Origin: Cephalotus follicularis
Taxonomy: Eukaryota > Streptophyta > Magnoliopsida > Oxalidales > Cephalotaceae
Direction: 5' to 3'
DNA: 64,000 bases
Assembly: GCA_001972305.1 (NCBI GenBank)
Contig: BDDD01000174.1
Span: 368,331 to 432,330 of the forward strand
Part shown: in pieces, positions 2,065-64,000 of the stretch
Numbering within the stretch: position 1 is the first letter of the stretch
How the letters are laid out: each line of letters starts with the position of its first letter
Notes under the pieces: model-generated
What the model saw: only the letters and a program-made list of their open reading frames with translations
Databases searched by the model: none
What the model was told of the DNA's origin: nothing
Program-made: the position numbers and the translations under genes

Positions 2065-5000
2065 GTACTTGATTAGATTACTATATCAATTAATATCTTG
2101 TAACTCATCTTACTCGATGCCTTTAAGATTTCTAAGATTCTTTTCTTAAACCTTTCGTCTTGTTTGGTTATGCTATCATGACATAATACTCGGTTATAGA
2201 GATTTTTGCCGTCAGAGTTTGGCACTGACCCTGCAAGAATGGAGAATGCAATGGAACCTGGAAGGGTGACATTTGATGACAAAATGGTAGTAAGGAAAGC
2301 AATTCAGGATGCCAAGATTCCCTTCACATATGTTTCGGCAAACTGCTTTGCTGGCTACTTTCTTGGTGGTTTGTGTCAACCAGGTAGTATACTTCCTTCG
2401 AGGGATCATGTAGTCTTGTTGGGTGATGGCAACCAAAAAGGTACCATGAAATTTCTCTTTATGTGGTACATAATTAAATTGAATAATTGCACACTCCAAT
2501 TAATTCACTTTGTAGATTTTTTTGTAAGGGGGCACACTTGGTATGTAAGCATTTACTGTGAGATACTTTAAAGTTGCAAGGCAAATACAAATATAGAAAC
2601 GTTTGGTATGCGACAAGAAAAAGTAATCTATTAATGTCATCTTGATGGATAAGTTTTATGCCTAAAATCTCTGTTATATCATGTTGTAAAACTAGCTTCT
2701 GAAATCTCTAACAACCTGATAGTAAAGTTTAATGAAGTAATCACATGCAAAACAATAAGGATAAATCAACACAAGATTTACGTGATTCGATCAATGTGAT
2801 CTACGTATACGGGCAGAGGTGATATGGATTTTATTATATGAATTCGGATTACAATGAGTCTCTAGGCTCTCTAGGTTACTCTCTCTACGTGTCACTCACT
2901 TTTTATAGCTGCCCCCCTTTGATATATATATTAACTAGGTTACACAAAACCCTACTCAAACAGATAAGGAAAGAAAACTCAGAAATAGCAATATTTTTCC
3001 ATCGCAAGCGTCGACGGTTTTACTCAAATTGTCAACGCTTTAGTGCATAGGGTCGATGGTTTGACGCTGACTGTCAGCGCTTTATTCTAGAAGGTATTTG
3101 TCCTTCTCTGCACTTCCAAAGCGTCGACTGACACGCCCCGTTCCCGAGCACCCCCGCCCAAGGACGGTCGTGTCAGGTGGAAGGATCCCTCACCTTAATC
3201 CCTAACCAAAACCCCCAAAAGCAATGGCTAACGCTAAGGCCAAGGCAGGCATTAAAACGCGCTGCCGAGGAGAGCCGCGCTCCCCAGGCCAAACGCACCA
3301 TAAGGCATAGAAACAAGAAGTGCCTGCATGCCAGAAGAAACACACGGCAGAGAAGGGACAAGGAAGGAATGGCAAAACTGTAAATAACCCTTACATAAAA
3401 CCATTCCCAAAACTCACCGTTTAACTAAAGGAGACACACACAACAACCACTGCCCAAACGCACCGTTCCACTAAAGGAACATGCCAGGGGAGGGAGTCAG
3501 GGCAGAGAACGTAACACAACGTCTTGCCTGGGGTCCCGGGCAGGGGATGCCAACACCACCCAACACAACATGACGTATCACAAGCCAGACCTGCACCTCC
3601 ATCCTAAGACAAGCCTTCCCCAGACGAGCCATCCTCGGGCATGTCCTCATTGAACGATTAACTTCGGACATGTCCTCCCCAGGCATGTCTTCCCCGGGCA
3701 TGACCCATACAAACAAGCATATGCAGGGGCACAAGAAAACGACAACGTTTAACATAAGGCTAAGCCTAGGATCAACACAAGGGCCCGGGACAAAAGCTAA
3801 GCAAAGGACAACCACCCGAGGTCCTACCAACGCTCATCTTACACTAAGGAGACGAAATCTCAACCTGGCCAAGCACCAATGGGATCCACCAGGGCTCACC
3901 TGACAAAACATCTCAAGGGACCGAGCTGGTCCGAGGTTGGAAGGACGGACAAACCTAAGGAAAACTTTTTACTCCCACTTAACGCCTGGGAGCATGCCCA
4001 GGGACAAACACCCGGGGACGCCACCAGACCTCAGCTTAGGGTCAACCAACCCGAGCAGAAAGGTCAACCTAAGGTCTGCCTATCCCTCGAACCTTACCAC
4101 CCCCTCCCCTGGCATCTCAGAAAAGGTGTCACGCACAAAGGGCTCGGGAGAAACACTTAAGTTTCACCTGGGGAGACCTGCTCCTTTGCCCAGGGTCAAA
4201 ATACCCCCGAACTCATACGTCGTCCCTGCACCCTAAACGCTTAACATAAACAACGCCAGGGCTGGGAACACAGCTCATAACAACAAGGTATATAAAACAA
4301 GTGAATTATATACGGTCCCGGGCAAAATGCCAAGAACCCCCAACATCTAAGAAATCATATACATGTTTACAAAAAGAAGGTTTACAAGACATAGACATCA
4401 ACAAGTATATACAAAAACCCCAAGAATGTCCCCAAATGCATGAAGGTGCCCGTGGCCGAGGAGCCATCCTAAGGTACTGCGTCAGGCGTCAACCTCTTTC
4501 AACACGTTGTCCTTAGTGGATCTCAAGAACCCTGCTCCCCGCTTCCTCTGCAGACAAAATTGAGAGGGGATTAATCCAACTGACTAGTGAGTAAGATCAA
4601 GGAATATCCTGGGCAAACCCACTTCCACCGGGGTGCCAAGAGTCAAGGTGAACGTGCCCTGCCCCAACTAGGCCAAAGGACAATCCATATCCACTACTCA
4701 ACAAAACAAGGCAGGGGTGACAATATACAAAGATATCAATAAAAAGGAAAACCCGAGGAGACATCAGAGCTACCAACTCAATGACTGACCTCAAGGAAAG
4801 AAGATAAACAACAGGTTATATGTCAGAACATGCCAGGGATCCAAGGATCAACAAAAGATCAACTCTAAGGATCAACAATTATCAAGGGACTACTGGTACC
4901 GTATCAATCACAAGTACATTCCACACACGCACACGCACACATCATACTCACACACTTCCATAGCCGGAACCACCTCGGCAAGCACAAATAACAATTCCGT

Positions 5001-8000
5001 TGACGTTCCATCAACGCTATCATGGGCTACAGAACTGTACACATCCCTCATATACGCATATAGATTCCCACTTCCAGAGCTCCGCATGAACATCGGTAGA
5101 AGGGCTACGCTAGCACTCCTTCCCCGGCTATCACACGTTGGCGCACCTCACTACATGAACATCGATCGAGGGGCTACGCAAGCCCACCCTTGTCTGCAAT
5201 CACGAGCTCAGCACTACACCATATGAACATTGATCGAGGAGCTAACTCGTCAGCAATCACATAGCGTTAGTATCGTCCAAGAGGCCCGCGAATCACTGCT
5301 CAGCTCCACCCTTGACGAGATGACAGAGGAGTACATCGTCTCAGAGGTAAGTGTATCACCACTTAGACCATCTGGTGCCCGCAATCTGATGTCCGAGGAC
5401 TCCATTATGGCCTGACCAGAGAAGATAGCGGATCCATGGCTACCCCCACACATCATTCCATCATAGACCAATGAAATGAGCAGATTCGGGTATGAAACTC
5501 AGGCACAGTCACACCCAACAGTTCATCATAGATAATGGCACTGCTGAATGGAATTGGGATCGAACACCCACTCCCCCTTCAGCCACAACAAGTCTCATAC
5601 ATAACCAAGTAGCCAGTAACCAGTAACCAGTACCCGGGGACAACAACACATGATATCAAATAAAGCATAAATACTTAAACAGAAAGGGGAAACAACAAGT
5701 TCAACCCAGGCATTGAGCCTTTAGCTCAGAAACAACAGTATTCACATGCAATATCAACAAGATGACAGCAGAAGAAGTCCTAGTCAAAGATAATATCATG
5801 GAAGGACATATAAACAGTAAACTCTCAGTTATCAATTGATAGAAAGAAGAACATCCCACTCACTAGTATCAGTAGCTTCCTCAGCTAGCTCCCTTGTTGT
5901 GCGGACTTCGTGCCTAGATCTTCCTCTGCAAGATCAACACACAACAACGCTTAGCCACCATGAACAAACATCTCTGAAGTCATGCATGAACCACATACAT
6001 CCATGAAAACCAAGGCGAAGCATTTCCTCGGCCTCAAAGATCGTTCCTGCACCAACCATGCGACACACCAAACCGTACTGAGGAGGACACTCACTTGCTA
6101 GACGCGTAGACGGGTGGAAGAAAGTCTCAACCTTAAACAGTGATCAAAGCTTCAGAAGAAAGACGAAGAAGAAAGATGAAAGATGAAAGCTCACTCTCCC
6201 AAATGCTTCTTCAGGCGTGAGATGATGGATATGACGTCTGTCGAAAGCCAACTGCCAAGCTTCTTAAGCAAGCTTTGCACATATCCCAACACAAAACAAA
6301 TATCACTTATCTCTTAACCACATACAAACCATTGGGCCTTCACCAAGCTCAGGCCAAACTAACACTATCCAAGAAGAGAAGCCCAAGCCAACCACAACCA
6401 AGGAGAAAAGAAAAAAATTTCTCCCAAGCCCAAACATCAATTTGCCCAAAATTAATGTGAGTCGTTACATCCTCTCTCCCTTAAGGAATTTTGTCCTCAA
6501 AATTCCAGCTCTGGTACAGGGAACAAGTCAGGGTAATGCTCCCTCATCTGGTCCTCACGTTCCCAGGTAGGCTCTCCTGCTACATGGTTGCTCCACAAGA
6601 TCTTCCCCAAGGGAATGGTCTTGTTCCTCAACACCTGTTCTCGGCGGTCTAAGATCTGCTCTAGGGCTGCCTCATAAGCCAACACTGGTAATTCCTCCTC
6701 GGATAACACCACTGGCTCGGTCAACACATGGGAAGGATCAGCAACGTATTTCCTCGGCACAGATACGTGGAACATGTCGTGCACTCTGGCCATCGCCTCG
6801 GGCAACGCCAAACGATAAGCCACTAGTCCGATCCTTTGCACAATTTCAAAGGGACCTATGTACCTTAGGCTAAGCTTCCCACGCTTGCCAAAACGAACAA
6901 TCCCCCTTTAAGGTGATACCCTGACGAAAACCTTGTCACCTACAGAGAATTCCAAGTCCTTACGACGCTTGTCTGCGTAGCTCTTCCGCCTACTCTGGGC
7001 CGCACGTAAACGATCTCGGATCACCTTCACCTTCTCTGCTGCGTCAGGTACCAACTCTAGTCCTAACAACCGGTGTTCTCCCACCTCATTCCAACACAAA
7101 GGGGTTCGACAATGTCTGCCGTACAAAGCCTCATAAGAAGCCATACCAATGCTCGCCTGATAGCTGTTATTGTAGGCGAACTCGATCAAAGTCAAACGGT
7201 CATCCCAACTTGTTGAATTGTCAACTATTCCACACTTGGTAGCACACCTACATTGATCACCATATTCAAATGTGGCAACCCATGTGAAAGGTGTGATGAT
7301 TTTTAAATACAATAAAATCAATGCATTCAAACCATGTGAGCTTTTGGATGCCATGAAGGTTGAATGTAGTCAAACATAGAATTCCATTTGGAATTCTATT
7401 GCTCTTATTTTAATGTTTTACTTATACTATAAATATGTGCTCTTTGTAAGGAAATAGATAAGGAAGTAAGAGTTTTTCTCCATTAACACTTTTTTCATCC
7501 CTCCAATTCTCTCATTCTTTTTCTCAAATTATTTCTTCTATGCAATTTTCTAATTCATTTTTCTCTCTTAAATTTCTTTCCGCATGAAATACTAAATTAT
7601 CTTTATGCTAATGCACCAATATATCCAACAACTGGTATCAGAGCACTAGTAGATCTCGACGGCACAATTACCGGCACAATTTTAGCACTATTTCGGCACC
7701 ACCGCGGCACTACTCCGGCAATACTCCAATCTTTCCGCTATGGCTTCTTCGACCTCAGCAAACGCGATACCCGTCTTCTCCGGCGAAAATTTTGATTTTT
7801 GGAGCATAAAAATCAAAACCATTTTACGAGCCTACGATTTGTGGGAAGTAGTGGAAAACGGCATTCCAAAAGTCGCGGCTCCGTTAAAAGAAAAAACAGA
7901 AGCTGAAGAAAGCACAACCACTACTACCACAAAATCCGAAAGCTCACCGACAACAGTCCCAATGAAGGAATGGCAGAAAAAAGATGCAGACGCACTCGCC

Positions 8001-20000: not shown

Positions 20001-22658
20001 CCATTCTCCCCGGTAAACTTGCAACCATGAGAATCTAGAACCCCCAAGGAAATCAGGTTTTTCTTCAGCTCCGAAACATGCCAAGCTTCCAAAGTTCTAA
20101 TCACACCGTCAAACATCTTGATCTGAACTTTCCCACATCCAAAAAGTTCCCCAACAGAACCTTCCCCTCCTTGACGTCATAGGTGGTGAACCAATCCCTG
20201 TTAGGTGTCATGTGAAAAGAACATCCCGAATCAAGAATCCAACTACTGGTGTTATTTACGCAAACAAACAGAACTAAATATGCATCAGCCTCATCCGAAC
20301 TTTCATTCACTACACCTGCATTAGCTTCGACTGTATTCCCCTTAACTATTCCCTTTCCTTTGTATCTCGGACAATCAACTTTACAATGCCCAGTTTCATT
20401 ACAAATAAAAAATCGAGAATTCTTAGCTCTCGACTTAGATCGTGACTTACCTCTTTTACCCGATCCTATCTCTCTGTTCCTGCCTCTAGCCACCAAGCCT
20501 TCTGCCTGATTTTCTCCCATATTTTCTGACACCCTTTTCTTCAACTCCCTAGACTGCAATGCATCCTTAACATCATTTACATCAATGGAGTCTCTACAAT
20601 ATAACATGGTATCCACAAAGTGATCATATGAGGATGGCAACGAACACAGCAAGATTAAGGCTTGATCTTCATCATCAATTTTAATATTTGTATTTTTCAA
20701 ATCATGAATAACCTTATTAAAATTGTCAATATGCTCTTTTACGAACATACCTTCCTTCATTCGAAGAGTATACAGGCGTTGTTTGAGATACAACCTGTTT
20801 GTGAGTGACTTGGTCATGTAGCGACTCTCCAGTTTATTCCATAACCCAATCGCCGTAGTCTCGTCCAAAAATTCCCGGAGAACGTCTTCCTCCAAACACA
20901 GCTGAATCGATGTATGTGCCATGTTTAGGATCCTCTTCTTCTCCGCCTGAGACATATCCTCAGGTAAACCTTCTTCACCATCTGTTGCCCCCCAAACTTC
21001 TTATTGTATTAGCAATGCCCGCATCTTAACACGCCACATACTGAAATCGCATGTTCCATCAAATTTCGCAATATCGAACTTGGTTGACATCTTGAATTCT
21101 GAAGCAAGAACATGTCTCTGATACCACTTGTTGAAAAACTAGCTTCAGAAATCTCTAACAACCTAATAGCAAAATTTAATCAAGCAACCACAAGCAAAGC
21201 AATTAGGATAAATCGACACAAGATTTACGTGGTTCGATCAATGTGATCTACGTATACGGGCAAAGGTGATATGGATTTTATTATGTGAATTCGGATTACA
21301 ATAAGTCTCTAGGCTCTCTAGGTTACTCTCTCTATGTGTCACTCACTTTTTACAGCCGCCCCCCTTTTGATATATATATTAGCTAGGTTACACAAAACCC
21401 TACTCAAATAGATAAGGGAAGAAAACTCAGAAATAGCAATATTTTTCCATCGCAAGCGTCGACGGTTTTATTCAAACTGTCGACGCTTTAGTGCATAGCG
21501 TTGACGGTTTGACGCCGACTGTCAGTGCTTTATTCCAGAGGGTATTTGTCCTTCTCTGCACTTCCAAAGCGTCGACTGTTTTCTCCTTCATCTTCAAAGC
21601 ATCGGCAGTTTCAACTAAAGCGTCATCGGTTTCGATCAAAGCGTCGGTGCTTTAAGCAGAAATTTCAAGCCATAATTCAACATATCAAAATATCTGTAAT
21701 TGCAAATGTGTCAGATAGGATAAATACCAAAAGAGGTATAACTATAGTGCAAAAACATTATTTGAAAAATGGGCTACTTAACCTAATATGTCATACCTTA
21801 GGATATGGAATTCTTTTGTTATATATAACACCAAAGTCCACAGTCATATGAAATTATGAATGGTTTTAAATCCAAGTATTGAATATTATGAAATTTGTAT
21901 TGTTTTTTCTATTTTGATAAATAAATAAAGTATAATTAGCTCCATGCAATTCCTTAATGTCTACAATATTGCACCATATGTTCAGTTATTGTAATGTGTT
22001 ATGCTATATAACCTTTAAATATTTTGTTTTTTCCCTTCATATTGGAGAGCCATATTGATGTATATACATGTCTCGATTTAACAGCTATCTACGTAGATGA
22101 AGATGATATAGCCACCTATACTATAAAAACGATAGATGACCCTCGAACTCTCAACAGGACATTGTATATTCGTCCATTCAAAAACATCTTATCACAGAGA
22201 GAAGTTGTTCGGATTTGGGAAAAATTGATCGGCAGTGACTTGAATAAGTCTTCCCTACCCAAAGAAGAGTTCCTAGCCTCCATGAAAGGTGAGTGAGACA
22301 TTAATTAGATCACTAAGTAGAAAGTATGATTATTCAGCGATGATATCATAACTTTTAATTAAAAATTTTTCTTTAGTTTTTAATAATAAGAAAGTTCTAT
22401 AAAATATTACAATTAAGTTACCAAAGCACAGTCCAATAATTGGAAATTTGTTTGTGAATGGTCTAATCAACTTTTATTTGTTGTTTTGCAAAAGGACAAA
22501 GTTATGAAGAGCAAGTTGGCCTAACACATTACTATCACGTTTGCTATGAGGGATGCCTTACAAATTTTGAAATCGGAAATGATGGAGGAGAAGCTACTGC
22601 ACTTTATCCAGATTTTCAATACACCACCGTCCATGAGTACCTGAAACGCTATTTGTAA
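1735..22658 (+). CDS. PLR: Pinoresinol-lariciresinol reductase (PLR), 4 exons, giant intron 2
   Basis: NADPH-dependent reductase of the NmrA/isoflavone-reductase-like family (PIP group). It is expected to reduce pinoresinol to lariciresinol and on to secoisolariciresinol in the cytosolic lignan pathway. Exons 1735-2064, 2200-2440, 22085-22288 and 22495-22658 join with GT..AG borders and matching phases into 939 nt, that is 312 residues plus TAA. PLRs are usually about 312 residues. The N-terminal NADPH loop GGTGYLG is at residues 10-16. The catalytic lysine of the family falls at residue 138 in [29 protein letters not shown] and the C-terminal VHEYLKRYL are family hallmarks. No stop or frameshift is seen. 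Intron 2 (2441-22084) carries three nested retrotransposons, nearly all in native non-coding intron. Related enzymes (isoflavone reductase, phenylcoumaran benzylic ether reductase) share the fold, but the '[20 protein letters not shown]' segment favours PLR. Stereospecificity cannot be read from the sequence. Confidence 0.9.
2200..2440 (+). CDS. PLR: PLR exon 2
   Basis: The acceptor TTATAG precedes 2200. The exon codes [13 protein letters not shown] through LLGDGNQK, including catalytic Lys138. It ends one base into the next codon before GTACCA at 2441. Intron 1 is 135 bp. Reading through 2441 leaves the family sequence at once. Confidence 0.92.
2682..3128 (-). repeat. T1 left LTR, part 1
   Basis: Starts TGTTGTAAAACTAGC and matches 21129 onward. 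It is cut at ..GCGTCGAC by the insertion of T2. Its last 120 bp hold degenerate GCGTCGACGG-type units. Confidence 0.9.
3129..6469 (-). repeat. T2 left LTR (3' LTR in element orientation), 3341 bp
   Basis: Starts TGACACGCCCCGTTCC and ends ..GTCGTTACA. It matches 13672-17009 along its whole length. The adjoining TCCTCTCTCCC (6470-6480) is, on the minus strand, the polypurine tract. Several short frames inside have counterparts in the other LTR but no protein-family features, and are not called as genes. Confidence 0.9.
6497..7210 (-). pseudogene. T2 integrase C-terminal part and chromodomain
   Basis: Continues the integrase interrupted by T3: [19 protein letters not shown], then [14 protein letters not shown] and a [19 protein letters not shown] tether. 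It ends in the chromodomain-type segment [16 protein letters not shown] stop and frameshift near 6905 divide it. This part ends just before the polypurine tract and left LTR. Confidence 0.85.
7211..7630 (+). repeat. T3 5' LTR, 420 bp
   Basis: TGTTGAATTGTC..ATATCCAACA. It carries a TATA-like ACTATAAATATG near 7427. Followed at once by the PBS. Confidence 0.95.
7633..7644 (+). other. T3 primer binding site (tRNA-Met type)
   Basis: TGGTATCAGAGC, two bases after the 5' LTR, is a perfect plant copia PBS. Confidence 0.9.
7740..8171 (+). pseudogene. T3 gag, N-terminal part, in-frame stop
   Basis: Starts [20 protein letters not shown], the usual copia gag opening ([17 protein letters not shown]). 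It runs 143 codons to an in-frame TGA at 8169-8171. The same frame stays open beyond it ([20 protein letters not shown]), so one point mutation, or read-through, separates the two halves. The gene is otherwise undamaged, consistent with its youth. Confidence 0.88.
8172..9749 (+). pseudogene. T3 gag C-terminus, protease and integrase core, truncated at LTR
   Basis: One continuous frame in phase with the upstream gag. In order: two CCHC knuckles ([28 protein letters not shown]), protease [12 protein letters not shown], the GAG-pre-integrase HHCC region ([23 protein letters not shown]), then the integrase core with [17 protein letters not shown] and [11 protein letters not shown], that is the D, D, E positions. 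It stops at AIYMLN, where the 3' LTR begins. The last ten residues are LTR-encoded. RT and RNase H are absent. Confidence 0.92.
9718..10137 (+). repeat. T3 3' LTR, 420 bp
   Basis: Same termini and length as the 5' LTR, with one mismatch seen. It joins directly to integrase coding sequence at 9717/9718. Confidence 0.95.
10143..10996 (-). pseudogene. T2 integrase, N-terminal part
   Basis: After the deletion junction the frame reads [14 protein letters not shown] and [20 protein letters not shown], the linker before the HHCC zinc-binding domain. It then passes into core-domain remnants with stops down to 10143, where T3 interrupts. The gene resumes at 7205. Confidence 0.75.
10997..11743 (-). 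pseudogene. T2 reverse transcriptase, RNase H deleted
   Basis: Open from 11743. Typical chromovirus RT with [46 protein letters not shown] and the active-site region [13 protein letters not shown]. At about 10997, just after NVVFLG, the reading passes straight into the linker preceding integrase. The end of RT and all of RNase H (several hundred bp) are therefore missing. The out-of-frame tail of the frame to 10835 is noise. Confidence 0.85.
11749..13543 (-). pseudogene. T2 gag and protease (degraded)
   Basis: Gag begins near 13543 ([16 protein letters not shown]), has an in-frame TAG before 13264, and continues through [21 protein letters not shown] and [10 protein letters not shown] to further stops near 12960. 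The open block 12573-11749 has a Cys-rich knuckle region ([26 protein letters not shown]) and the aspartic protease motif [13 protein letters not shown], followed by [11 protein letters not shown] one-base frameshift near 11760 separates it from RT. Confidence 0.85.
13672..17009 (-). repeat. T2 right LTR (5' LTR in element orientation), 3338 bp
   Basis: Starts TGACACACCCCGTTCC and ends ..GCCGTTACA. Just inside (about 13650-13667) the minus strand reads TTGTATTAGAGAG, a decayed version of the tRNA-Met PBS TTGGTATCAGAGC. Confidence 0.9.
17015..17099 (-). repeat. T1 left LTR, part 2
   Basis: Resumes TGTTTTCTCCTTCATC exactly where part 1 stopped, judged against the intact right LTR at about 21577. 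It ends ..ATAATTCAACA. Together the two parts make 532 bp, against 554 bp for the right LTR, which has an extra GCGTC unit. Confidence 0.9.
17185..18720 (-). pseudogene. T1 reverse transcriptase / RNase H (degraded)
   Basis: The RT N-terminus is at 18694-18512 ([20 protein letters not shown]). The main RT block is 18355-17723 ([20 protein letters not shown]). The catalytic YVDD motif reads YVDE, so the active site is altered. RNase H pieces follow to about 17185 with several stops, including TTEAEYMAL near 17480. The right boundary is approximate. Confidence 0.8.
18887..20116 (-). pseudogene. T1 GAG-pre-integrase and integrase (degraded)
   Basis: Open blocks 20116-19889, 19795-19460 and 19420-18887, separated by stops or frameshifts. 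Visible are the HHCC-region remnant (CEHCVYGKQ), the core motifs IHSDIWGP and LRTDNGLEY, a shifted [19 protein letters not shown] carrying the usual Glu-helix region in altered form, and the copia-type C-terminal [11 protein letters not shown]. An interrupted polyprotein with no intact frame. Confidence 0.85.
20101..21090 (-). pseudogene. T1 gag and start of protease (degraded)
   Basis: The frame begins with ATG at 21090 ([12 protein letters not shown]). It meets an in-frame TAA at 21001-21003, then runs open from 20955 to 20101. The copia gag domain (about [20 protein letters not shown] to [11 protein letters not shown]) is followed by a CCHC knuckle whose first Cys is lost ([14 protein letters not shown]) and the protease motif [10 protein letters not shown]. 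The frame is lost after LLGN. Non-functional. Confidence 0.85.
21115..21126 (-). other. T1 primer binding site (initiator tRNA-Met type)
   Basis: The minus strand reads TGGTATCAGAGA two bases inside the right LTR, the usual plant copia PBS complementary to initiator tRNA-Met. Confidence 0.8.
21129..21682 (-). repeat. T1 right LTR (5' LTR in element orientation)
   Basis: Starts TGTTGAAAAACTAGC and ends ..ATAATTCAACA, followed by the TATCA duplication. It contains a run of GCGTCGACGG / GCGTCGGTGC units at about 21458-21650. Confidence 0.9.
22085..22288 (+). CDS. PLR: PLR exon 3
   Basis: The acceptor TTAACAG ends at 22084. The split Ala codon (G + CT) restores [14 protein letters not shown] exactly in phase with exon 2, 19.6 kb upstream. 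The exon runs through [17 protein letters not shown] to EEFLASMK. The donor is a consensus GTGAGT at 22289, with one base of the next codon kept in the exon. Confidence 0.92.
22495..22658 (+). CDS. PLR: PLR exon 4 (C-terminus)
   Basis: The acceptor GCAAAAG ends at 22494. The split Gly codon is followed by [19 protein letters not shown], then the [10 protein letters not shown] terminus and TAA at 22656-22658. Intron 3 is 206 bp. Length and ending match the family C-terminus. Confidence 0.92.
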
Positions 22659-25312: not shown

Positions 25313-27874
25313 TGTCACACCCCATTTTCCGTTAAGACAACATATATGGTGATATCAGTTATAATATAATAATCCAACATTCAACATTTAAACAATTTCA
25401 TTAACATAAGCGGACGCATTCTATTGCCGGATTATAAAATTATCCGCACGCAGCCCATACCACGTGCTTATACAATACCAACAATTATCCTTTTACATAT
25501 TGAAAATGTAAAACAACAACAACAACGGAGTATGATCGTTCATTTCAATACAAAACATAGTGAATAACAACCTTAACAAAATAGAAGCTCTCCAATAAAG
25601 CTTCAGCAACACTTCCCCGAAAGCCTTCACTTAATCTGAAATTGTAGGGGGTTAGCCGTTGTCCTCACTTGGCTAAGAAGGAATAAAGCATGAAAAAGAA
25701 TATATAAATGTAACATGCATGTCAATTATTTTGAAATAGCACATATATAAGTATTTCAATATATATAAGCAATCATGCCAAGTGTCCATAGACAGTACAA
25801 TTCAAGAATACCGCACATGGGTAAAATCAATCAATACAGTGGTTTGGGTGTCACATGTCACTAACTCCTAGCACCAACTGTGCACCACCTAACTATCACC
25901 CTACACTACGAAGATGATAGATCAGGTCAATTCTGCCGATATTTAGGGGGCAAGTAACAATCAGAATCTGCATTGCAGATAAGTATGGTGGAATCTCTAG
26001 CCAACTCCTGGCACATAGGACCACCCCGTAGCCAATGATGTCTCCTATCACTCGACTAACGGAAATAACATAGACAGACAATTCAATCAATTCAATAGCA
26101 ATGTTACATATTTTTATAATATGCAATATAGTAGTTATTTTCTTTTGAAATCCTTTAACAATTCAGTAACCGTACCTCTCATTGGAGGAAACGGTATTCA
26201 GTACAGTAGTTGTGTCTCTCATAGGAGGAAAATCAGTAAATCGATTAATAATAAGTTTTCATTTAGAAAACCACAATAATAAAACCCATTTTGTGCTTAT
26301 AACACTAGTTGGTTTAATCATTAATATTAAGTGTAACATTAGTATTTATGAACACTTAATAGCTATACTGTATCTATAACATCATTTTTAAACAGCAGCG
26401 GAACAATCACAAGTCAAGGGTTCAACAAGATATTAGTGTACCCTAGTCAGTCTTGCACAACTCTCCCTAGGAGTTTATAAGTTGTTTGCTTTCAAACTAA
26501 AACTACATAAGTCCATGATTGACTGTTACGGTCATCCCATATGGAGGCCTGTGTAATTTTACACAATTTAAAGCCTAACAGCAGCTAATTATCAGCAATT
26601 TGTTACTTAACAGTTGGTTGTTTCTAAGAATAGCCGGCTGTTTTCATTAGGCAGTCGACTGTTTGTCCTTAACAGTCGACTGTTTGCATTGAGCAGTCGA
26701 CTGTTGGGTTTAAACAGTCGGCTGTTTTTGTCCAGAATCGTCAGACAGTAATTTAAATAAACAGAGTAAGCATGTTCACCATCAAAATTCCAATCAATCA
26801 GTAACATGCAATCATACAGAAATCATCCAAGCATGATATACATATCATATCTTATAAAACATGTCAAAACCCCAACCTCAATTGCTATCGCAGAATCAAA
26901 TTGAGTTGATTCCTCTCTTTGAGTTCGAAGTCCCAACTCCACACAAACTTTCCAATTTCAGCAGGTTAATCTATACCATTGCATGTTTGTATGCATATAC
27001 ATTAAAACCAGTAAGTTGTTTTGTTTATCTAATCATGATAACAACTATAATCCAACCAGTAGCTTAGTGAAATCTCTTTACTCTAGTTCCACATTTAACC
27101 AACTTTCATTCCCATTCTAATTCCAGGGTTATAGTTCCAAAGTTATGTTTAACAGTGGATACATATAGCTAACATCAGTTTTTGATTCACTAACAACCTT
27201 AATATCAGTAATAACTCGAGATGGTGACTTACCAGGACGATTTAAAGCTTCACTCTCCCTTTGCAACTCCAACTATCAACATGCAAGCTCCAACAATTCT
27301 CTCATTCGATTTTCTCTCCTCAGTGTTTCCTAACACTCAAATCAAGCTCTTCACAACTGATATATAGAAGGCTTAAGGCTTAAGAATTCGACAGATTCCA
27401 TAACTACAAACCCAGCATTTACTTCCTCTCTCTCTCACATGCATGTTCCTCACTTTTTCTTCTTTCAATTTTTGTCTTGCAGGTTGCAGGCCTGCAGGTG
27501 GAATAGAGCACATGCAAGGCACCACCCTTGCATGTTAAGGCAGCTAGTGACACGTATCTCTCATGCATGATACGGTTAAAATACCTGTCATCATCTGCCC
27601 TGCCCTGTTTCACGCCATGCACAGACACCTGTCTGAGCCAGACCAGTCGACTGTTGCCCTATGACAGTCAACTGTCACTCCCTGAATCAAAACAATCGGC
27701 TATTACCCTGTGACAGTCGGCTATTTGAGGCTGGTTTTGGTTACTTAAGCTTATTCCTTCAATTAAAACCATAGTCACAAATCATATAACAAATGGACAT
27801 TGAAATTCAATGTAAGTGCATATTTTATTCATCAAGAGTACAATATACACGAATTGTAAATTGCGGTCATTACA
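25313..27874 (-). repeat. Element A 3' LTR, 2562 bp
   Basis: TGTCACACCCCATTTTCC..TTGCGGTCATTACA. The adjoining TTCCCCCCACC (27875-27885) is the polypurine tract on the minus strand. It contains two clusters of CAGTCGACTG-type palindromes. Confidence 0.88.
26600..26740. repeat. CAGTCGACTG palindrome cluster in LTR A
   Basis: Perfect CAGTCGACTG at 26652, 26673 and 26694. The spacing is 21 bp each time. Diverged flanking copies (CCGGCTG, CAGTCGGCTG) occur. Further copies occur at about 27645-27725 in the same LTR. Confidence 0.85.
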
Positions 27875-29200: not shown

Positions 29201-29222
29201 CATCCGGAACACATATCCTTCC

Positions 29223-32298: not shown

Positions 32299-34344
32299 TG
32301 TCACACCCCGCTTGCATTAACAACATACAACATGGCAAATTAACAGATATCCAGCTTATACCGAGAACGATAAAATTTAAAATTTTTAAACAGACATCAT
32401 CTTGCGGAAGCATTTATATATAAGCTGAAAACAAACAGAACCATGCGTCCCATACCGCATGATTCCCACCATAACCTTATCATAACATGTTAAAAAGCCC
32501 ACAAGCGGAGCATGATCCAAGGTTGATACAACAAAAATAGCAAAACATTAGTACATAACCCAAGGTACAACATGTTCGCTACAAAGCTTAACAAAGCACT
32601 TAAAACATAAAACTCCGTCGCATCACTGTACAACACAACCATGCTCGGCGACATCCCAAAACGCAGCATCAATCTGCAACAGTAGGGGGTTAGCCTTTGT
32701 CCTCACTCGGCCAAAGTCATAAGAACAACACAATATCAATAAAACCAAAGTATGAAAGCAGCATGATGCAGTACATACTATATCTCGATGCATATATATA
32801 TATAGATATGCCTATGCCAAATACACGATGTCACGATATCACCGAAGCCACGGTGTCACAATATCACAATATCACAGTGCACAGTCTCAAACAAGTCCAA
32901 AGGACTGCACAATACACGGTTCACGATGGGTACGAAGAGCGTCGCCAACTCCTGGCCCCAACGTCGTACATCCCGTCATCGGCCCCGACTCCGGACGGCA
33001 CGAAGCATGTCACAATGCAGTGAGTCACCCAGCCAACTCCTGGCCCCTGAGTCGACCCGGCCACTAGTCATCGCTGGCATCTCCGCCACGCAACTAGTAC
33101 GGCCACAATCACAATCACAATCAGCAATCACAGTCAAACTCAATCACAAACACAGTCATCTAGATGCTCAAAACAGTTTTCCAAGTAGTTTATAAAATAA
33201 AATACCTGAAAACAAACTCATTTTCACGATGTCACGGTTCACGGTTCTCGAAATCACAAAACTCAGTTCACGGTGTTTTTGGAAGTCATTTTCACGGTTC
33301 GAAAGTATATATTTCTCAAAACATATAATCTCGTATAAAGTAATGATTTTTCATTAACTACAATGCACTTCCAGAAATATGTTATAACAATTCAAACTCA
33401 ATGATCACGATAGCCACTCGACAGTCGGCTGCCATCCCTGACAGTCGGCTGTCCACACCCCCACAGTCGGCTGTCGACCTACGACAGTCGGCTACACAAC
33501 TCCTGCACACATTTTTGGGAAACGAAAGGGGGCAGTCGACTGGCCTCACCAGACAGTCGGCTGGACCCCAAAGCAGTCGACTGCTCAAGGTCGGCAGTCG
33601 GCTGGATTCTGCAGCAGATGTAAAAACCAGCTGTTAAAACAGCCACCAACACACACCCAACAAACCCCAAAATGACATATTTATGCACATACACGTTCCA
33701 CACTCACAATATAACATAAACATGCATTTTATTTCATCAAAAACATTTGCAATTGAAATTGTGTTGAAAAAGTGACTTCCCCCTACCTTAGAACTCCAAG
33801 TTAGGAGTTGCAATCCACCTCTTTAAGCTTAAATCCGAAGCTCTTGCAACCCCAACACGATCAACCACCTTCAACAAGCCAAAACTCCCACTGCCAAGCC
33901 TCCAAACTTTCGGTTTCAACACAAACCTCACAAAGCCTCAACACACGCACACACTTTCACTTCAAACTCTCTTGAATAACAAGAAATGACGGAGAAAGAA
34001 GAGAGAAGCATGTGTTTTAAGGAGAGGAATCCCGGCCCCTCCTCTGCCAGAAGCCAAAATAACAAAACACTCTCCCATTTCTCATTTAAGGCAGAAAACA
34101 CGTGGGCTGTCTGGCGCATGACAGTCGAATGCCTCGCTTGGCAGTCGGCTGTTTCTGCCGACACTCATACCAGTCGGCTGCCACCTCACGGCAGTCGGCT
34201 GCCCCTGCACAAAAACACACATCATCACACTTTCTTGCAACATTTCAACACGGGAAAGAGGGAAAACACGATTCTCATTAACACAAGGTGTAAAATTACA
34301 TTAGGAAGCAATATTACACATAAATGAAAATCCCGGGCGTTACA
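32299..34344 (-). repeat. Solo LTR (2046 bp) inside element B integrase
   Basis: TGTCACACCCCGCTTGC..CGGGCGTTACA, flanked by perfect 5-bp duplications GAAGG (32294-32298, 34345-34349). Removing it with one duplication rejoins the integrase frame of B (..MRFWKEG / KLSHHFIGPFE). Orientation is assigned by similarity of its TGTCACACCCC end to LTR A. No internal region is present, as expected after LTR-LTR recombination. Confidence 0.92.
33418..33610. repeat. CAGTCGGCTG / CAGTCGACTG cluster in the solo LTR
   Basis: About eight copies of a 10-12-bp unit, including the perfect 12-bp palindrome GCAGTCGACTGC (33573-33584). A second cluster lies at 34118-34202. Confidence 0.85.
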
Positions 34345-34349
34345 GAAGG

Positions 34350-34757: not shown

Positions 34758-37275
34758 TGTAACGCCCCAAATTCTTTTTTGTACTGTTCATGCATACCTT
34801 GTACTATATCGTACCGTATTGAATTGTATTGAACCGAATTGTACTGTATTGACTTCTACTGGACCGTATTGTATTGTATCGGCATGAAATAAATATGTAC
34901 CTATCGGTTATAGTATGGAACGTATGCATGTATAGTCAGGATTTTGGACTAAGTATTGGAGAGATAAGGAAATTTATATAAGTCAATTTCCTCCCCCTTT
35001 TCTCTCATTTTCCCCACCATCTCCCTCTCTCTACCTTCCTCCTCCTCTCTCTTAGCTAGACAACCTCCATCCTTCATTTAGCAACTTTGGTTTGGCTTCT
35101 TCCATTAACAAAGATAGCTTTTGCAAGTGGTAGCATACCAATTGAACAAGAAAAGAGAGTGAACTCTTGGGAATTTTCGGCTTTGATCGATCATTGTTCA
35201 ATTGTTAAAGCTGCTATTATAGGTAGGACTTCTTACTTGAATTACCTATAGTTTGTATTGATTGATTGATTGAATTGTATGATTGAATGAATGTATTGAG
35301 TGAATTGTAGGTTTTAAGGTTTTATTAAATCCTTGACCTAATTGATGCAGAGAATGATAGAAATTGTAAATTGAATGTCGTAACTTGTTTTACTAACCTC
35401 AAATGATTAATTTTAACACTTGGTTTTCAAAGAATGGGTTTTAATGGGTTTTTGACTTGAGATTTGGCTACTTTTCTGCATAAAAATAAAACCCTGCCTA
35501 GCAAAGACATCTATCCCTAGCCCATGGACATCGATGTCTTTTGCTTGAAATGCAGCATCCTTGTTTTTTGTAGCAAAGATATCGATGTCTTTCAAAGACA
35601 TTGACGTCTTTGCCCGGGATTTCTCCTTTTTGAAGAAGACATTGATGTCGAGCATCGATGCGTATTTATAGGTTATTTTTAACGAAACAAGTCGACGCCT
35701 TTTCCCAACGACATCAACGTCTTTAAGCCAAATCTTTATTCAAATAGAGAAAGACATCGATGTCTTTCAAAGACATCGATGTCCTTCTATAGTTTTAAAG
35801 AATTGCCTGAAACGCGTCGATGTCTTTCACCAAAGACATCGACGCCTACAGTGTAGAATGAAATTTTAACTGTTTTAAAAGCTGGTTTTCAACTCCTTTT
35901 CACATTGCTTTTTGACCGAAGCCTCACTTGAGGTATTCAAGCTTTTGAAACACAGTTTTCTACGGTTTTCAAAGATTGGATTGATAGAGTGACGAAGTGA
36001 GCCATATGCGACGATCCAGTGACTTTCATCAACCGGATAGACATTCCTTTCTATCTCATTTATTCAATTGTCACCGTCTATTTTCTATCTCATTGATTCG
36101 ATTTTCACCGTATATTGGCTACTGATTGATTGATTGATTGATTGAGCCATAAGTGTTGTAAGTCTAAGTTCGGAACGTTGGACGCTCATTCCCATTTATC
36201 CATTAGACATCACCACTTATCGGTATTGTACTGACAGATTGATTGATTATATTGTATGGATCCTATAGAGTGACCTTATGACCCGCATCGGCATGTTAGG
36301 TTGTCGACTTTGTCCACCTATTTCGTCGATCGCGTCATTTATTGTATTGATCTAGTGACGAGCAGTACTGTTACTGATTGACGATTGATGCTTCCGGAGG
36401 GTTGTAGTTCCCTAATGGTATAGTAGCTCCCCCATGGTTGTCGCTCATCGATACTGTATTGACCCAGCCATAGGCTAGAAGACCTATGAGTCCGAAACCT
36501 AATCAGTTTGAGGGTAGATCTCCCACCCTTTTCGAAGGACTACCTTCCGTGGGATTGATCATTGCTACTGATTAACACTGTACTGACCGAGGTCGCATGC
36601 TCTATAGGATATCATTGATTGATTAGGTGTTTGATGCACCACCACTGGGTGTCTGCCATTGTATTGATTGATATAGATCCTATCCATATGCTCTGTTATG
36701 GGCCAGTGACATACATATAGTAGACCGCCAACTGTATTCATGCATTTACCATATCATACATTGATATTGTACACTGCACATTTATATTGCATAAACTATC
36801 ACCGATATTGCACATTGTACATGTATACATGTTGTGTGGGGTTCTGCTTAGCCTTGTGGCTAACCCCATCCCTCGGGGTGGGGCGGTGTTATACTTTTAT
36901 GTGCGGCATTGGTAGGGCAGCAGGTAGCAGCGGACAGAAAGATTGAAGTTTCGGTGCGACCGCATGATCGTTCGGATGAGACAGAGCCGTCTTACAGATT
37001 GTACTGATGAGACTGAAGACTAGTGCTGTATGGAAATGTATCAGAATGAAATGACTGACATAGTATTGTAACTGGATAAGTGTTGTATTATAATGACTGG
37101 TACTGTACCGTTTTGTATCGCATGAATGATTACTTGTATTGTATCTTCCGCATCAGACATGTATTGAAAAGTTTTAAGTTTTTCCGCATTTTTATATTGA
37201 TAGTCCTGACCACTATATTGTATATTGGATTGAGAGTAATGTCGCGTGTCCGCTCTGCGGGCGCGAGGTGTTACA
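34758..37275 (+). repeat. Element B 3' LTR, 2518 bp
   Basis: TGTAACGCCCCAAATTC..GCGCGAGGTGTTACA, directly after the polypurine tract. A TATA-like TTTATATAAG lies near 34973. A dense palindrome array is at 35500-35860. The rest is rich in ATTGATTG-type low-complexity stretches. No second LTR copy is in the window to compare with. Confidence 0.88.
35500..35860. repeat. GACATCGATGTC palindrome array in LTR B
   Basis: About ten units of the form AAAGACATCGATGTCTTTC, some converted to GTCGACG or ATTGACG. AAAGACATCGATGTCTTT at 35750-35767 is an 18-bp perfect palindrome, followed after one base by another GACATCGATGTC. Confidence 0.88.
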
Positions 37276-37536
37276 GTTGTGGGCGTCGACGCTTTAAGCA
37301 CAAAGAGTCAATTCTTTGAGGTTGGCATCGACGGTTTGGCGCCATTTGCAGTTTCTTTAAACTCTATTTATCCAACTTCCAGTTTAGTTCAATTCGGTCC
37401 AATTTCTTTTCAATTAAGTCCTCAAATAATCCAATAATTACAATCAACATAACAATTGAACATTCAATTTCAATTTAATGTGTAATTTATTCATCAATTA
37501 TACAACATACATTAATTCAAATTTGCGGTTATTACA
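37276..37536 (-). repeat. LTR end fragment (C-right)
   Basis: Ends ..TTTGCGGTTATTACA and resembles the end of LTR A (27790-27874) in the stretch from CATTCAATTTC to the terminus. It contains GCGTCGACGC (37283-37292) and a CATCGACGG unit. It may be the other end of C-left, with A and B in between. Confidence 0.6.
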
Positions 37537-54096: not shown

Positions 54097-54099
54097 AGT

Positions 54100-54875
54100 T
54101 GAATACAACAACCTGGAAGGACCATTTTCCACTTCCATTTATCGATCAAATGCTTGATAGGTTAGCTGGTCATGAGTACTATTGTTTTCTCGATGGGTAC
54201 TCCAGATACAATCAAATTCCCATCGCTCGGCAAGACCAAGAGAAAACCACATTCACATGCCATTTCGGAACATTTGCTTACCGACGCATGCCGTTTGGTC
54301 TTTGCAATGCTCCCGCCACCTTCCAAAGGTGCATGATGAGTATTTTCTCTGACATGGTGGAAGACTTCCTTGAAGTGTTTATGGATGACTTTTTTGTACA
54401 TGGTTCCTCCTTTTCTCAATGCCTTCATCACCTAAAATTAGTACTCGAAAGAAGTCGAGAGAAGAATTTAGTGCTTAATTGGGAAAAGTGCAATTTCATG
54501 GTGAAGAAGGGGATTGTTCTTGGACATATAGTGTCAAAAGAAGGAATTCAAGTAGATAAAGCAAAAATTGAAGTCATCAAGCATTTGCCTCCACCTCGTA
54601 ATGTGAAACATATCCGAGCATTCCTCGGACATGTTGGTTTTCATCGAAGGTTCATCAAGGACTTTAGCAAGGTCACACGTCCCTTGACTTCGCTCCTTGC
54701 GAAGGATCAAGATTTTGTTTTCTCTGATGAGTGCCTTGTAGCATTTGACCGCTTAAAGAAGGAGCTCACTTCCGCTCCTATCATTCAGGCACCCATTTGG
54801 ACTGAGCCTTTTGAGATCATGTGCGACGCTTCCGAAAAATGCCACTGGAGCTGTTATCGGACAAAGAATGAATAA
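54100..54875 (+). pseudogene. Athila reverse transcriptase, N-terminally deleted
   Basis: Starts within RT at WKDHFPLPFIDQMLDRLAGH. It keeps FLDGYSRYNQIPIA, the RRMPFGLCNAPATFQRCM motif, active-site VFMDDFFVHG and the thumb GFHRRFIKDFSKVTRPL. The segment normally preceding it (WRVCIDYRKLN-type) is gone. A frameshift at about 54828-54845, in the CDAS motif, moves the reading into the RNase H-integrase block. Confidence 0.85.
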
Positions 54876-57045: not shown

Positions 57046-58494
57046 TATTTGCTTAGCATAAAAATGTGTTGTTTTTAATGCGTTATCTGTGATATTTTTA
57101 TGCTTGGAAGAGACTACTTTGGTTGTGTTATATTGATTTTAAGGTACAAGTGTTAAATCACCAAAGTGCAAGAATACTACCCAAAAGTGTCTAAATTGGA
57201 GCTTGAAAGAGTACAGATTGAAGAATGGACAAAATCTGCAGAAAACAGACTAAAAGCGTCGATGTCTTTCATTCAAGTCGATGTCTTTTCTGGGTTTACA
57301 ACAAAGAAGTCGACGTCTTTGTAAAGAAGTCGACGTTTTTTCTAGAAAATGCATGAATCTTCAAAGAGCTATGAAAAAGAAGTCGACGTCTTTTACAAAC
57401 ACGTCGACGCCTTTCATAAGGATCGACGTCTTTCAACATACACATCGATGTCTTTGAGCAAAATTGACCTGTAACTTTTGGACCAAAAGAAGTTGACGTC
57501 TTTAGACAAAGGAGTCGACGCCTTTCACTCGCATCTCAGCAAATCGCGACTTTTAGCCAAAGAAGTCGACGCCTTTACAAAGAAGTCGACGTCTTCCTCT
57601 ACAGCAGAAATAGAAAGTTTAGATTTTTGCCATATTTTGTAACTAGGATTACTTTTATTCCGTTTTTGATCAATTTTGTAGTATAAAAACAATGTTATTT
57701 CGGCAGAATACAGAAGTAGAGTAGTAGAGAGGTTGTAGAACCCTAATTTTTCTTTCATCAATTTAGTTTACTTTCACAATGTTTAGGAGCTAAACCTTTT
57801 GAAGGTTTTAGGGAAGAACAAGCCTAGATTGTTATTGTTTCAATTCCATCAATAAAATCCTTGAATATTTGATTTGTTCTTCAATATTTCTGCCTTCACA
57901 CACACTTTGTCTGTCTGATTAAAATTCACAAACATCTTTTCAGTGAAGCTTAAAGATTGGTGAATAAATGGTGCTTAATTCAACGGAGTCTACTCATACG
58001 ATTTGTCGCAATGAACACACTTTGTATATACCTAGTATGACTACTCATACGTCTTGCCGCCACATTTGTCGTACTTCGTATAGACCTAGCATGTCTACTC
58101 ATACATCTTGTCATCACCGCCGCACTCCGTATAGACCTAGCTCTCGTTGTTTATCAAGGTATGATCGTTCAACTTCATGGAATTGTTCAATACAATCTAT
58201 GATGAGTTTCTATACCCTAAAACTGTTTCTTTATTATATATTCTCTTTACTTTTATTCATTGCATGCTTTATTTCTTAGTATTTCAAATTCAACCTTTTT
58301 AATTATTGAAGTTTTAATTTCTTGTTTTGATTATTTATTTTATTTTGCATAATTAGGAGTAGTTTTTAATAGTTGGTCTCAAATTTGGTATACTTCGCCT
58401 AGGTTGGATAAATTACAACTAGTTTACGTTTCCCTGCGTTCGACCCGTTATTGCATGATCCGTGCACTTGCGGCTATAAATTTTAAAAACATCA
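57046..58494 (+). repeat. Athila 3' LTR, about 1.45 kb
   Basis: Starts at or near TATTTGCTTAGCATAAAAAT, right after the G-tract. TATA-like TAGTATAAAAACAA is at about 57679. It ends near the TGCGTTCGACCCGTTATTGC.. and GTGCACTTGCGGCTATAAAT landmarks common at Athila LTR 3' ends. Boundaries are good to about 10 bp because no second LTR is present. Confidence 0.7.
57247..57598. repeat. AAGTCGACGTCTTT array in Athila LTR
   Basis: About twelve irregularly spaced units of the form AAGTCGACG(T/C)CTTT, with variants AAGTCGATGTCTTT, AAGTTGACGTCTTT and ACATCGATGTCTTT. It lies upstream of the LTR's TATA-like box, so probably in U3. Confidence 0.9.
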
Positions 58495-60439: not shown

Positions 60440-60440
60440 A

Positions 60441-60455: not shown

Positions 60456-60544
60456 TTTTTGATTCTGTAAACTTATATTTTTGAAGTGTATCTCATGGAT
60501 TTTCAAGGTTTCTTTAAAAGTTAAAAAACCTCCACGTGGCTAAC

Positions 60545-61206
60545 TGTAATGTCTCGAATTACCATTCAATGTATTATTGTAATTCCGTTGTAATTTTATG
60601 ATGAATTAATGAAGATTATGGATTTCCAATTTGTAATGTTAAATTTTGAGTGAAAAGAGCTAAGGATTGTTGTGGTGAGTTGAAAATAATGAAAAAGACG
60701 TTTGAGCGTCGACGCCAAGGTATAGCGCCGACGCCAAGAAGTAGAACGCTACGCTTAAGGCTTCTTGCCTTAAGGAGTTGACGCCAAGAGATAGCGTCGA
60801 CGCCAAGGAATAGAGTATCACGCTTAAGGTTCCTTGCCTTAAGGCATTGACGCCAAGAGATAGCATCGACGCCCATCGTTTGTGAACTAAAGACACATAC
60901 GTGGTACGTCGACGTGCAACTCAATCTTGAAGAGCAATGCGTTAACAGGATTCATGGAACCTGTTAGCTCTAAGGAGGATAGTCAACGTGTCGACACGTA
61001 TCGTAGTACGTTGACGCCTAAACGTGACAACAGACAAGTTAAGGCACCGGTAGAAGATGCGTTAAGGACAGGTGTCACCTACTGGTCTGGCGTCTTGTCA
61101 CGCTAGAGATAGCGTGTTATACATGGTGCCAGTTCCCCATGCCTGCAACTGCAGAAAGTGGGAAAGAGGGAGAGGCATTTGCGTGTGTCAGGCGGGCAAA
61201 GTGAGA

Positions 61207-61252
<46 letters not shown>

Positions 61253-61320
61253 GCGGTTTCCCCATAAAGCACGCTTCTCTTCTTTGTCTTCAACCTGCGC
61301 CTGAGAAAGAGAAAGAAAAC
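60545..61320 (+). repeat. LTR D, first copy (5' 776 bp only)
   Basis: Aligns with 62448 to about 63195. It ends after GCGCCTGAGAAAGAGAAAG(AAAAC), where integrase sequence begins. It carries GCGTCGACGCCAAG units (60706 on) and an (AG)n tract (61206-61252) that is much longer than in the second copy. Confidence 0.85.
61206..61252. repeat. (AG)n microsatellite in LTR D copy 1
   Basis: About 20 AG units with one AC interruption. The matching site in copy 2 (about 63107-63122) has only a few units. Confidence 0.9.
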
Positions 61321-61321
61321 A

Positions 61322-62403: not shown

Positions 62404-62447
62404 AAATGTTAAAAGTTCAAGATCGAATTTCTTTGGGGAAGGGAGAT

Positions 62448-64000
62448 TGTAATGTACTGAATCACCATTCAATGTATTATTGTAATTCCGTTGTAATTTT
62501 ATGATCAATTAATGAAGATTATCGGTTTCCAGTTTGTAATGTAGAATTTTGAGTGAAAAGAACTAAGGATTGTTGTGGTGAGTTGAAAATAAGGAAAAAG
62601 ACGCTTGAGCATCGACACCAAGAGATAGCGTCAACGCCAAGAACTAGAACGCCATGCTTAAGGCTTCTTGCCTTTAGGTGTTCACGCTAAGAGATAGTGT
62701 CGACACCAAGTAATAGAGTATCACGTTTAAGGCTCCTTGCCTTAAGGCGTTGACACCAAGAGAAAGCGTCGACGCCCATCGTTTGTGAACTAAAGACACA
62801 TACACGGTACATCGACGCGCTTCAGTCTTGAAGAGCAATGCGTTAACATGGTTCGTGGAACCTGTTAGCGTTGAGGAGGATAGTCAATGCGTTGATGCAT
62901 ATCCTAGTACGTTGACGCCTAAACGTGACAACAGATAAGTTAAGGCACCGACAGAAGACGCGCTAAGGATAGATGTCACCCACTAGTCGGGCGCCTTGTC
63001 ATTCTAGAGGTAGCGTGTTAAACATGGAACCAGTTCCCCATGCCTACAACTGCAGAAAGTGGGAAAGAGTGAGAGGCATGTGCGTGTGTCAGGCAGGCAG
63101 AGTGAGAAGAGAGAGTGAGAGATATGGTTTCCCCATAAAGCACGCTTCTCTTCTTTGTCTTCAACCTGCGCCTGAGAAAGAGAAAGAAAACAAAGGGAAA
63201 CAGGAGAGGAAAGGAGAAAGAGAGAACCACATTTCTCCATACTTGAACCAGAGATAGAGGAGTGGAAGCTCGGTCTAGGAATGGAGTCGAGCTGGATTTG
63301 GAGTTTCTATACAAGACTTGGAAGCTCATAGGCGCTTCGGGTCTGTGATCTTGAATAGGTGGACAACGATTCCTAACTTATATGAGGTAGGGATTATATA
63401 ACTACATTTTGACCTTAATTATAATGGATGCATGAATGGTTGATTGTGATTTGAGCATGTGAGTTTCCATTAATGGATGAACTGTTATTCATGTCTGACT
63501 TGAGAATGGAAATGGATTGAGTTTCATGTGTTGTTATGCTCGGTTTCACTGGTTTAAGCCATTGTTGTGCTTTGAAATGAAGAAGACGATGTCTGGTTTC
63601 ACTGGACCGTCGACGCTTAGAGGAAAAGAGTCGACGCCTTGGACTGTTATGCGAGGAAATGGATGTTTGGTTCATTGAACAGTTGACGTTTAGAGAAAAA
63701 GCGTTGACACCTTGGCCTGTAATGTGAGGAGGAAGATGCTTTAAGCGTCAACGCCAAGAGGTAAACGTTGAAGCCTAAGGTTCCTACCTTAAAGCATCGA
63801 CGCCCAAAGAGATGAACGTTGATGCCTAGAAGGTTTGTCATAAACGTTGTTCTCCATAAACGTTGACGCCTAGAGGGTATGTGCTGATGTCTAAGAGGAC
63901 TGTCATGCACGTTGACGTCTAGAGGTCATATGTTGACTGCCATGCACGTCGATGCCTAGAGAGTACACATTGACGCCAAAAGGGTCTGTTTTTATTTTGA
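62448..64000 (+). repeat. LTR D, second copy (3' LTR), incomplete at window end
   Basis: Starts TGTAATGTACTGAATCACC after the polypurine tract and continues to the last base. Two palindrome-rich stretches (about 62610-62920 and 63598-63990) lie in it. Frames inside (for example 62973-63257) have counterparts in copy 1 but are low-complexity Arg/Glu and not called. Confidence 0.82.
63598..63990. repeat. GTCGACGCC / GTTGACGCC array in LTR D
   Basis: About fourteen units such as GAGTCGACGCCTTGG, GCGTCAACGCCAAGAGG, ACGTTGACGCCTAGAGG and CGTCGATGCCTAGAG, spaced 20-40 bp. The central CG is often replaced by TG or CA, as expected from deamination of methylated CpG. Confidence 0.88.

Follow-up and report, generated by a model that had tools for sequence, protein, structure and literature searches.

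Palindromic control arrays in the long terminal repeats (LTRs) of plant retrotransposons are known from Sireviruses, whose RM boxes are palindromic, occur in many copies per LTR and precede the TATA box (Bousios et al. 2010, PMC2829016). According to the accessible passages of that paper, the comparison covered Ty1/copia but no gypsy elements and showed RM boxes in Sireviruses alone, and all RM boxes except those of Tnd-1 of tobacco carry a CGG-CCG signature; the RM motifs of a grape element (CGGTCGACCG) and of Tnd-1 (ACAATCGATTGT) are both centred on TCGA. For maize Sireviruses, the available excerpts describe palindrome clusters with the core CACCGGACNNNGTCCGGTG in the cis-region of the LTR, which represent small-RNA hotspots and were interpreted via RNA structure, and one of these palindromes is the commonest motif of structured regions in maize Helitrons (PMC5311732, PMC10760457). 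Here, arrays of short palindromes with the core GTCGAC (more generally RTCGAY) were analyzed in LTRs of copia and gypsy retrotransposons within a 64,000-nucleotide stretch of the Cephalotus follicularis genome (contig BDDD01000174.1, positions 368,331 to 432,330; hereafter referred to as the window).

Like RM boxes, the Cephalotus arrays are palindromic and present in many copies per LTR, and their TCGA centre corresponds to that of the grape and tobacco motifs. Unlike RM boxes as described in the accessible passages, they are also carried by gypsy elements (A and D of the window and one in the sampled stretch L025), and their arms are devoid of the CGG-CCG signature, as in Tnd-1, with CAG..CTG and GCG..CGC as the commonest arms around TCGA. 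Because of these two differences, the arrays were classified as variant LTR palindrome arrays and not as RM boxes proper. Furthermore, they feature a rigid 21-bp step, whereas the passages on RM boxes give no spacing. The maize palindromes, as far as the excerpts describe them, are likewise clustered in the LTR and exemplify a palindrome common to unrelated elements, but possess a different core. New relative to RM boxes are the joint occurrence in copia and gypsy elements, the rigid spacing and the existence of dialects. No report of these arrays was found in the literature searched, as judged by titles and abstract openings, and a search for the GTCGAC motif in connection with binding yielded no paper.

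A genome sample of 25 stretches of 10 kb each (L005–L029; 237,990 non-N bases), chosen blind to content, was evaluated together with the window, and 100 dinucleotide shuffles of the window and of the pooled sample served as null model. This comparison, similar to the count against shuffled LTRs suggested in the original prediction, revealed an excess in both datasets. The window contains 34 copies of GTCGAC (shuffle mean 5.9, maximum 11) and seven GTCGAC pairs at distances of 19–22 bp, a number that was zero in the shuffles. Among the palindromic hexamers of the window, GTCGAC ranks first under a Markov-2 expectation (34 vs. 5.9) and second, behind TATATA, under a Markov-1 expectation. These palindromes are concentrated in the arrays originally described: 28 of the 34 copies fall inside the 11 intervals initially listed, which cover 2,496 bp or 3.9% of the window (the lone site at 37283 being entered as a 26-bp interval). 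ATCGAT, initially regarded as a co-equal core, turned out to be only a minor variant, with a weaker excess (26 vs. 13.7 expected) and six of 26 copies inside the intervals, five of these in element B.

In the sample, 165 GTCGAC copies were counted (shuffle mean 20.3, maximum 33). Ranking 2,080 strand-free hexamers by over-representation places three parts of the array unit on top, namely CGTCGA (216 vs. 30.9; z 32.8), CGACGC (156 vs. 17.1; z 32.7) and GTCGAC (165 vs. 20.4; z 31.2), the former two overlapping the latter. The GTCGAC excess is entirely clustered, isolated sites being near chance (25 vs. 19.9); at least one copy was found in 21 of the 25 stretches and a pair 19–22 bp apart in 11. 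Extrapolation from the sample leads to approximately 1.1 million GTCGAC sites genome-wide. Genome counts amounted to 15,868 for GCAGTCGACTGC (36 for the reversed pattern), 339,984 for AGTCGACT (23,357) and 223,473 for CGTCGACG (8,375). Since the reversed core CAGCTG contains no CpG and the genome is CpG-poor, this control does not flatter the result. Based on the Markov expectations, the hexamer ranking and the dinucleotide shuffles, chance was rejected as origin of the arrays.

Spacing of the sites proved to be far from loose, as the arrays had first been described. In window and sample, GTCGAC copies are always at least 19 bp apart; most frequent are distances of 21 bp (28 pairs), 42 bp (13) and 20 bp (11), with additional groups near 49, 63 and 70 bp. 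Genome-wide, 68 pairs were counted at 16 bp, 105,145 at 21 bp, 582 at 26 bp and 12,877 at 28 bp, approximately 758 being expected at any one spacing for independent placement at the sampled density. Steps of 16 bp are depleted, 21 bp is strongly preferred and 28 bp represents a lesser second step. Inner letters such as ACACG or CACGTG recur in many of the listed 28-bp spacers, in contrast to the free spacers of 21-bp pairs, and a second site may be located between the palindromes of such pairs. ATCGAT pairs at 21 bp occur 2,092 times genome-wide (control: 441), many of those listed being of one spacer type.

Information content was determined for 100 listed 21-bp pairs out of 105,145, all originating from one contig and comprising 81 distinct strand-free sequences. 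Values for bases 1–5 from the core were 0.88, 0.41, 0.27, 0.33 and 0.29 bit, and those for bases 6–8 were 0.02, 0.05 and 0.00 bit. Within one array, 21-bp spacers are distinct from each other at 4 or more of their 15 bases. These differences and the random spacer centres led to rejection of an origin by tandem copying of a single 21-bp unit.

The palindromes could also act at the RNA level, where neighboring units would pair into hairpins for small RNAs, RNA dimerisation or packaging. Array RNAs fold well below their shuffles (z −2.4 to −7.2 in eight arrays), with mean values of −4.8 (plus strand) and −4.0 (minus strand) in 16 arrays compared to −0.47 in 60 background windows, and the excerpts on maize Sirevirus LTRs report palindrome clusters as small-RNA hotspots (PMC5311732, PMC10760457). 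However, hairpins should tolerate loops of 10 and of 15 bases equally well, but 21-bp pairs are 181 times commoner than 26-bp pairs. Moreover, the variant GTCGGC can form a G-U pair on only one of the two strands, and the elements do not agree on which strand this is: read in the sense direction, T1, L007 and L025 have GTCGGC (five in total), and the first L009 pair, L011 and A have GCCGAC (12 in total). The array of L026 hardly folds (z −0.1 and −2.7). Because hairpins alone leave the 21-bp preference and the strand distribution of the variant unexplained, they were rejected as the only selected feature, and an RNA role as the explanation of the arrays is considered unlikely. As modeled, hairpins between neighboring units would be strong and may feed small RNAs.

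The arms vary in concert, while the spacer centres hold no information. Among 199 sites, the arms match in 72% at ±4 (39% if independent), in 50% at ±5 (31%) and in 27% at ±9 (26%). TCGA is the sole one of the 16 palindromic four-base centres showing palindromy over many positions in the sample. Genome-wide, mixed A/C arms were counted 83,196 times, with 312,830 expected, a ratio of 0.27 that is inflated by shared descent. Three dialects recur, namely CAGTCGACTG, AAGCGTCGACGCTT and AAAGAC[A/G]TCGA[C/T]GTCTTT, and hybrid dialects are present in L022. GACGTC is likewise over-represented in the pooled sample (71 vs. 20.4), partly via the third dialect.

Rigid spacing by two helical turns, free spacer letters, absence of pairs below 19 bp and symmetric arms are the features to be expected of dimers lined up along one side of the helix. 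It is the spacing that backs a dimeric DNA-binding protein, named before as one candidate, as the leading one. The arrays probably represent clustered palindromic sites for one or more homodimeric DNA-binding factors, positioned two helical turns apart and setting transcription or silencing of the LTR. Each site would span approximately 18 bp, composed of the core RTCGAY, variable symmetric arms and A/T-rich ends, and would be recognized either by one homodimeric factor or by a few related factors whose different arm preferences would correspond to the dialects. Neighboring dimers, 21 bp apart and hence on one DNA face, would probably bind cooperatively. The location of the arrays in LTRs suggests that such a factor would most likely control how far the element is transcribed, either by activating it or by taking part in its silencing. 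Factors of the DREB/CBF type, with sites of the form RYCGAC, are a conceivable reader. A wider version is put forward more tentatively and regarded as possible rather than probable: one dimeric protein, encoded either by the host or by a single element whose product other elements employ, and a few paralogues differing in arm preference might assemble along LTRs in two-turn steps, so that much of the copia and gypsy community would depend on it or be policed by it, enough for its site to rank highest among the hexamers of a 1.6-Gb genome.

In window and sample, 33 arrays were called, of which 32 were kept. The one dropped (L005, 7721–7812) consists of three near-palindromes centred on CCCGG, 44–47 bp apart, and contains no GTCGAC. 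The 32 arrays form 18 sets lacking any match of at least 100 bp at 1e-10 within 250 bp of the array; sets 0 and 1 represent two arrays of one element type, approximately 1.1 kb apart. The copia element T1 bears the array in both LTRs, and in L024 two arrays (405–526, 1647–1766) are located upstream of open reading frames (ORFs) for copia gag and reverse transcriptase (RT). Gypsy bearers are A, D, the 57-kb element of the window and L025, whereas the array in L005 was assigned to gypsy by proximity to a gypsy RT and integrase. The palindromic core is thus common to unrelated LTRs, as had been stated initially. Among the elements that could be resolved, an LTR location was established for T1, A, D, L007, the first L009 pair, L011 and L025. 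GTCGAC lies within the aligned repeats in five of ten repeat pairs examined (L007, first L009, L011, D, T1); the pairs of L013 and L019 are partial or N-broken and hence uninformative. In L025, the array is inside a 5' LTR of approximately 2.8 kb, deduced from a primer-binding-site-like (PBS-like) sequence and a polypurine tract (PPT). In sense orientation, arrays precede a TATA-like site in T1, L007 (strand not firm), the first L009 pair (one variant unit lying just beyond that site), L011, L025, A, the 57-kb element and the first array of D. ORFs matching PF20167 and PF04195, plant transposon families of unclear function, were observed in L007 (7100–8131, minus strand) and L009 (5501–6046, plus strand).

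Derivation of all array-bearing LTRs from one ancestral array-bearing LTR would account for the common core and LTR location. It was rejected and is considered extremely unlikely, as judged at the outset, since the bearers include copia T1 as well as gypsy A, D and L025 and the 18 sets are devoid of long homology, although sets 0 and 1 represent one element type and the CAGTCGACTG sets hint at kinship.

Spread of the arrays among elements by sequence exchange (template switching or recombination), without a common function, was evaluated by comparing spacers between sets, the L016 array being excluded. At most 4 of 15 bases differ in 41 of 1,564 comparisons (2.6%), compared to approximately 0.9% for resampled spacers. 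Of these close matches, 38 occur among sets 0, 1, 4 and 12, which are of the CAGTCGACTG dialect, including 23 between sets 1 and 4, indicating a contribution of exchange or of an older common origin in these sets; for most other sets, with one to four spacers each, the comparison is weak. Exchange would have copied the spacers too, yet these are mostly unrelated while the step remains 21 bp, and the three dialects stay symmetric though their letters differ. Moreover, sites outlast their flanks: diverged copies were compared in 33 alignments, which overlap one another, and GTCGAC is intact in both copies at 60 of 129 sites, with 26.6 expected from flank identity, although the core contains a CpG. 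Alignments shorter than 150 bp, above 92% identity or with fewer than two sites were excluded, as was the satellite locus L017, a long tandem satellite with steps near 163 bp (2033–4752 and 7729–10000). Exchange without function is accordingly judged improbable. Regarding the initial alternative of convergence or exchange, the mostly unrelated spacers favor the former, while ancestry or exchange has to be added for the CAGTCGACTG sets.

Several observations weigh against the proposed dimer sites. The 28-bp step corresponds to a non-integer number of helical turns, and all genome counts are inflated by shared descent within arrays and families. Persistence is uneven (L009 vs. L024: 3 of 21 sites, 4.9 expected; D: 1 of 5, 1.8 expected; L018 vs. 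L026: 0 of 4, 0.3 expected; L018 vs. L024: 0 of 3, 1.2 expected; several pairs: 0 of 2), and the overlap of the 33 alignments has to be considered. Furthermore, the motif is not part of every LTR, T2 and the second L009 pair having none. Array B and the second array of D do not precede a TATA-like site, the L009 array at 7278–7398 lies past a PBS-like site, and the TATA order is weak evidence, as TATA[AT]A is encountered 1.87 times per kb in any case.

A protein-based precedent is provided by the VANC targets of VANDAL elements, which, in the parts of the reports available, are dense arrays of short motifs in noncoding DNA of transposable elements with family dialects, VANC6 motifs also occurring in an unrelated element (PMC5735166, PMC10398659). 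The Cephalotus arrays are similarly dense, feature dialects and have a motif common to unrelated elements. As VANC targets illustrate, motifs of this kind can function in anti-silencing and can also be present in an unrelated element. Hence, the reader might be an element-encoded VANC-like anti-silencing protein employed in trans by other elements, and several dialects would suit several such proteins. However, as far as these sources go, VANC targets belong to DNA transposons, originate from tandem repeats, are bound by a known protein and are non-palindromic motifs arrayed in one orientation (PMC5735166), whereas the divergent spacers with random centres show that the Cephalotus arrays are not tandem-born. 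Among 40 ORFs in the neighborhood of arrays that were scanned against Pfam, beyond which no further search was made, no candidate gene was found, and a VANC-like reader is considered unlikely. Host factors reading a DNA motif are exemplified by REM transcription factors, which, according to the accessible part of the source, recognize TTTTGCTTATNTTTTGCTTAT, recruit RNA polymerase IV and set methylation (PMC12270911). The REM/CLSY3-type motif TTTTGCTTAT given there bears no likeness to RTCGAY when compared by reading.

Arrays and elements of the window are summarized in Table 1.

Table 1. Palindrome arrays and a motif-free contrast in the window (positions refer to the window)
Feature	Position	Strand	Composition and remarks
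Palindrome array, left (3') LTR of copia T1	3003..3128	-	2 GTCGAC, 3 RTCGAY
T2 copia left LTR, motif-free contrast	7211..7630	+	no GTCGAC; 99.8% identical to 9718-10137
Palindrome array, right (5') LTR of copia T1	21458..21660	-	3 GTCGAC, decayed units to ~21660; TATA-like sites downstream in sense orientation
Array of gypsy element A, dialect CAGTCGACTG	26600..26740	-	five relaxed units in exact 21-bp steps
Second, decayed array near start of same LTR of A	27640..27725	-	GTCGAC at 27646 plus GCCGAC and near-units; LTR start preceded by PPT-like tract
Array of element termed solo LTR, mostly CAGTCGGCTG variant	33418..33610	.	3 GTCGAC, 7 GTCGGC/GCCGAC
Variant array	34118..34202	.	4 GTCGGC/GCCGAC, no GTCGAC
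Array of B, dialect AAAGACATCGATGTCTTT	35500..35860	+	5 ATCGAT, 1 GTCGAC, 8 RTCGAY
Lone GCGTCGACGC unit	37283..37292	.	single site
Array downstream of gypsy pol (first named Athila), dialect AAAGAAGTCGACGTCTTT	57247..57598	+	7 GTCGAC, 1 ATCGAT, 11 RTCGAY; tract
First array of D, left LTR	60706..61020	+	4 GTCGAC
First array of D, right LTR	62610..62920	+	2 GTCGAC, 4 RTCGAY
Second array of D, further along right LTR	63598..63990	+	2 GTCGAC, 4 RTCGAY

T1 was identified as copia element by a Retrotran_gag_2 (copia gag) match at 20101–21000; its LTRs (2682–3130 and 21129–21578) are 92.7% identical, and a PBS-like site at 21117 adjoins the LTR. In A (domains at 27916–30522) and in the 57-kb element (pol at 53302–56463), the order of RT before integrase is that of gypsy elements, and a TATA-like site at 57682 follows the array of the latter. 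The LTR repeat of D (60545–61221 and 62448–63122) shows 88.3% identity; D encodes an H2C2 integrase domain, which we take to be of gypsy type, and has an rve match below cut-off. No chromodomain was matched among the ORFs scanned against Pfam. The LTR of B is inferred to start near 34758, based on a PPT-like tract and TG.

Regarding details of the original prediction, its count of about 12 units for the Athila interval is fair, and the T2 LTRs are indeed array-free: GTCGAC is absent from both copies (7211–7630, 9718–10137). T2 (7211–10137) is a small copia element whose LTR identity of 99.8% indicates that it is recent. The perfect palindrome reported for B exists but reaches 20 bp (at 35749) instead of 18 bp, the unit at 37283 is present but stands alone instead of forming an array, and the supposed GTCGAC/ATCGAT array at 34118–34202 is built from variant units.

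Palindromic control arrays in plant LTRs have so far been described for one copia lineage, and the same core and 21-bp step are found here in copia and gypsy elements. If one factor reads the arrays, numerous retrotransposon families of a genome could be switched or silenced simultaneously by just one protein.

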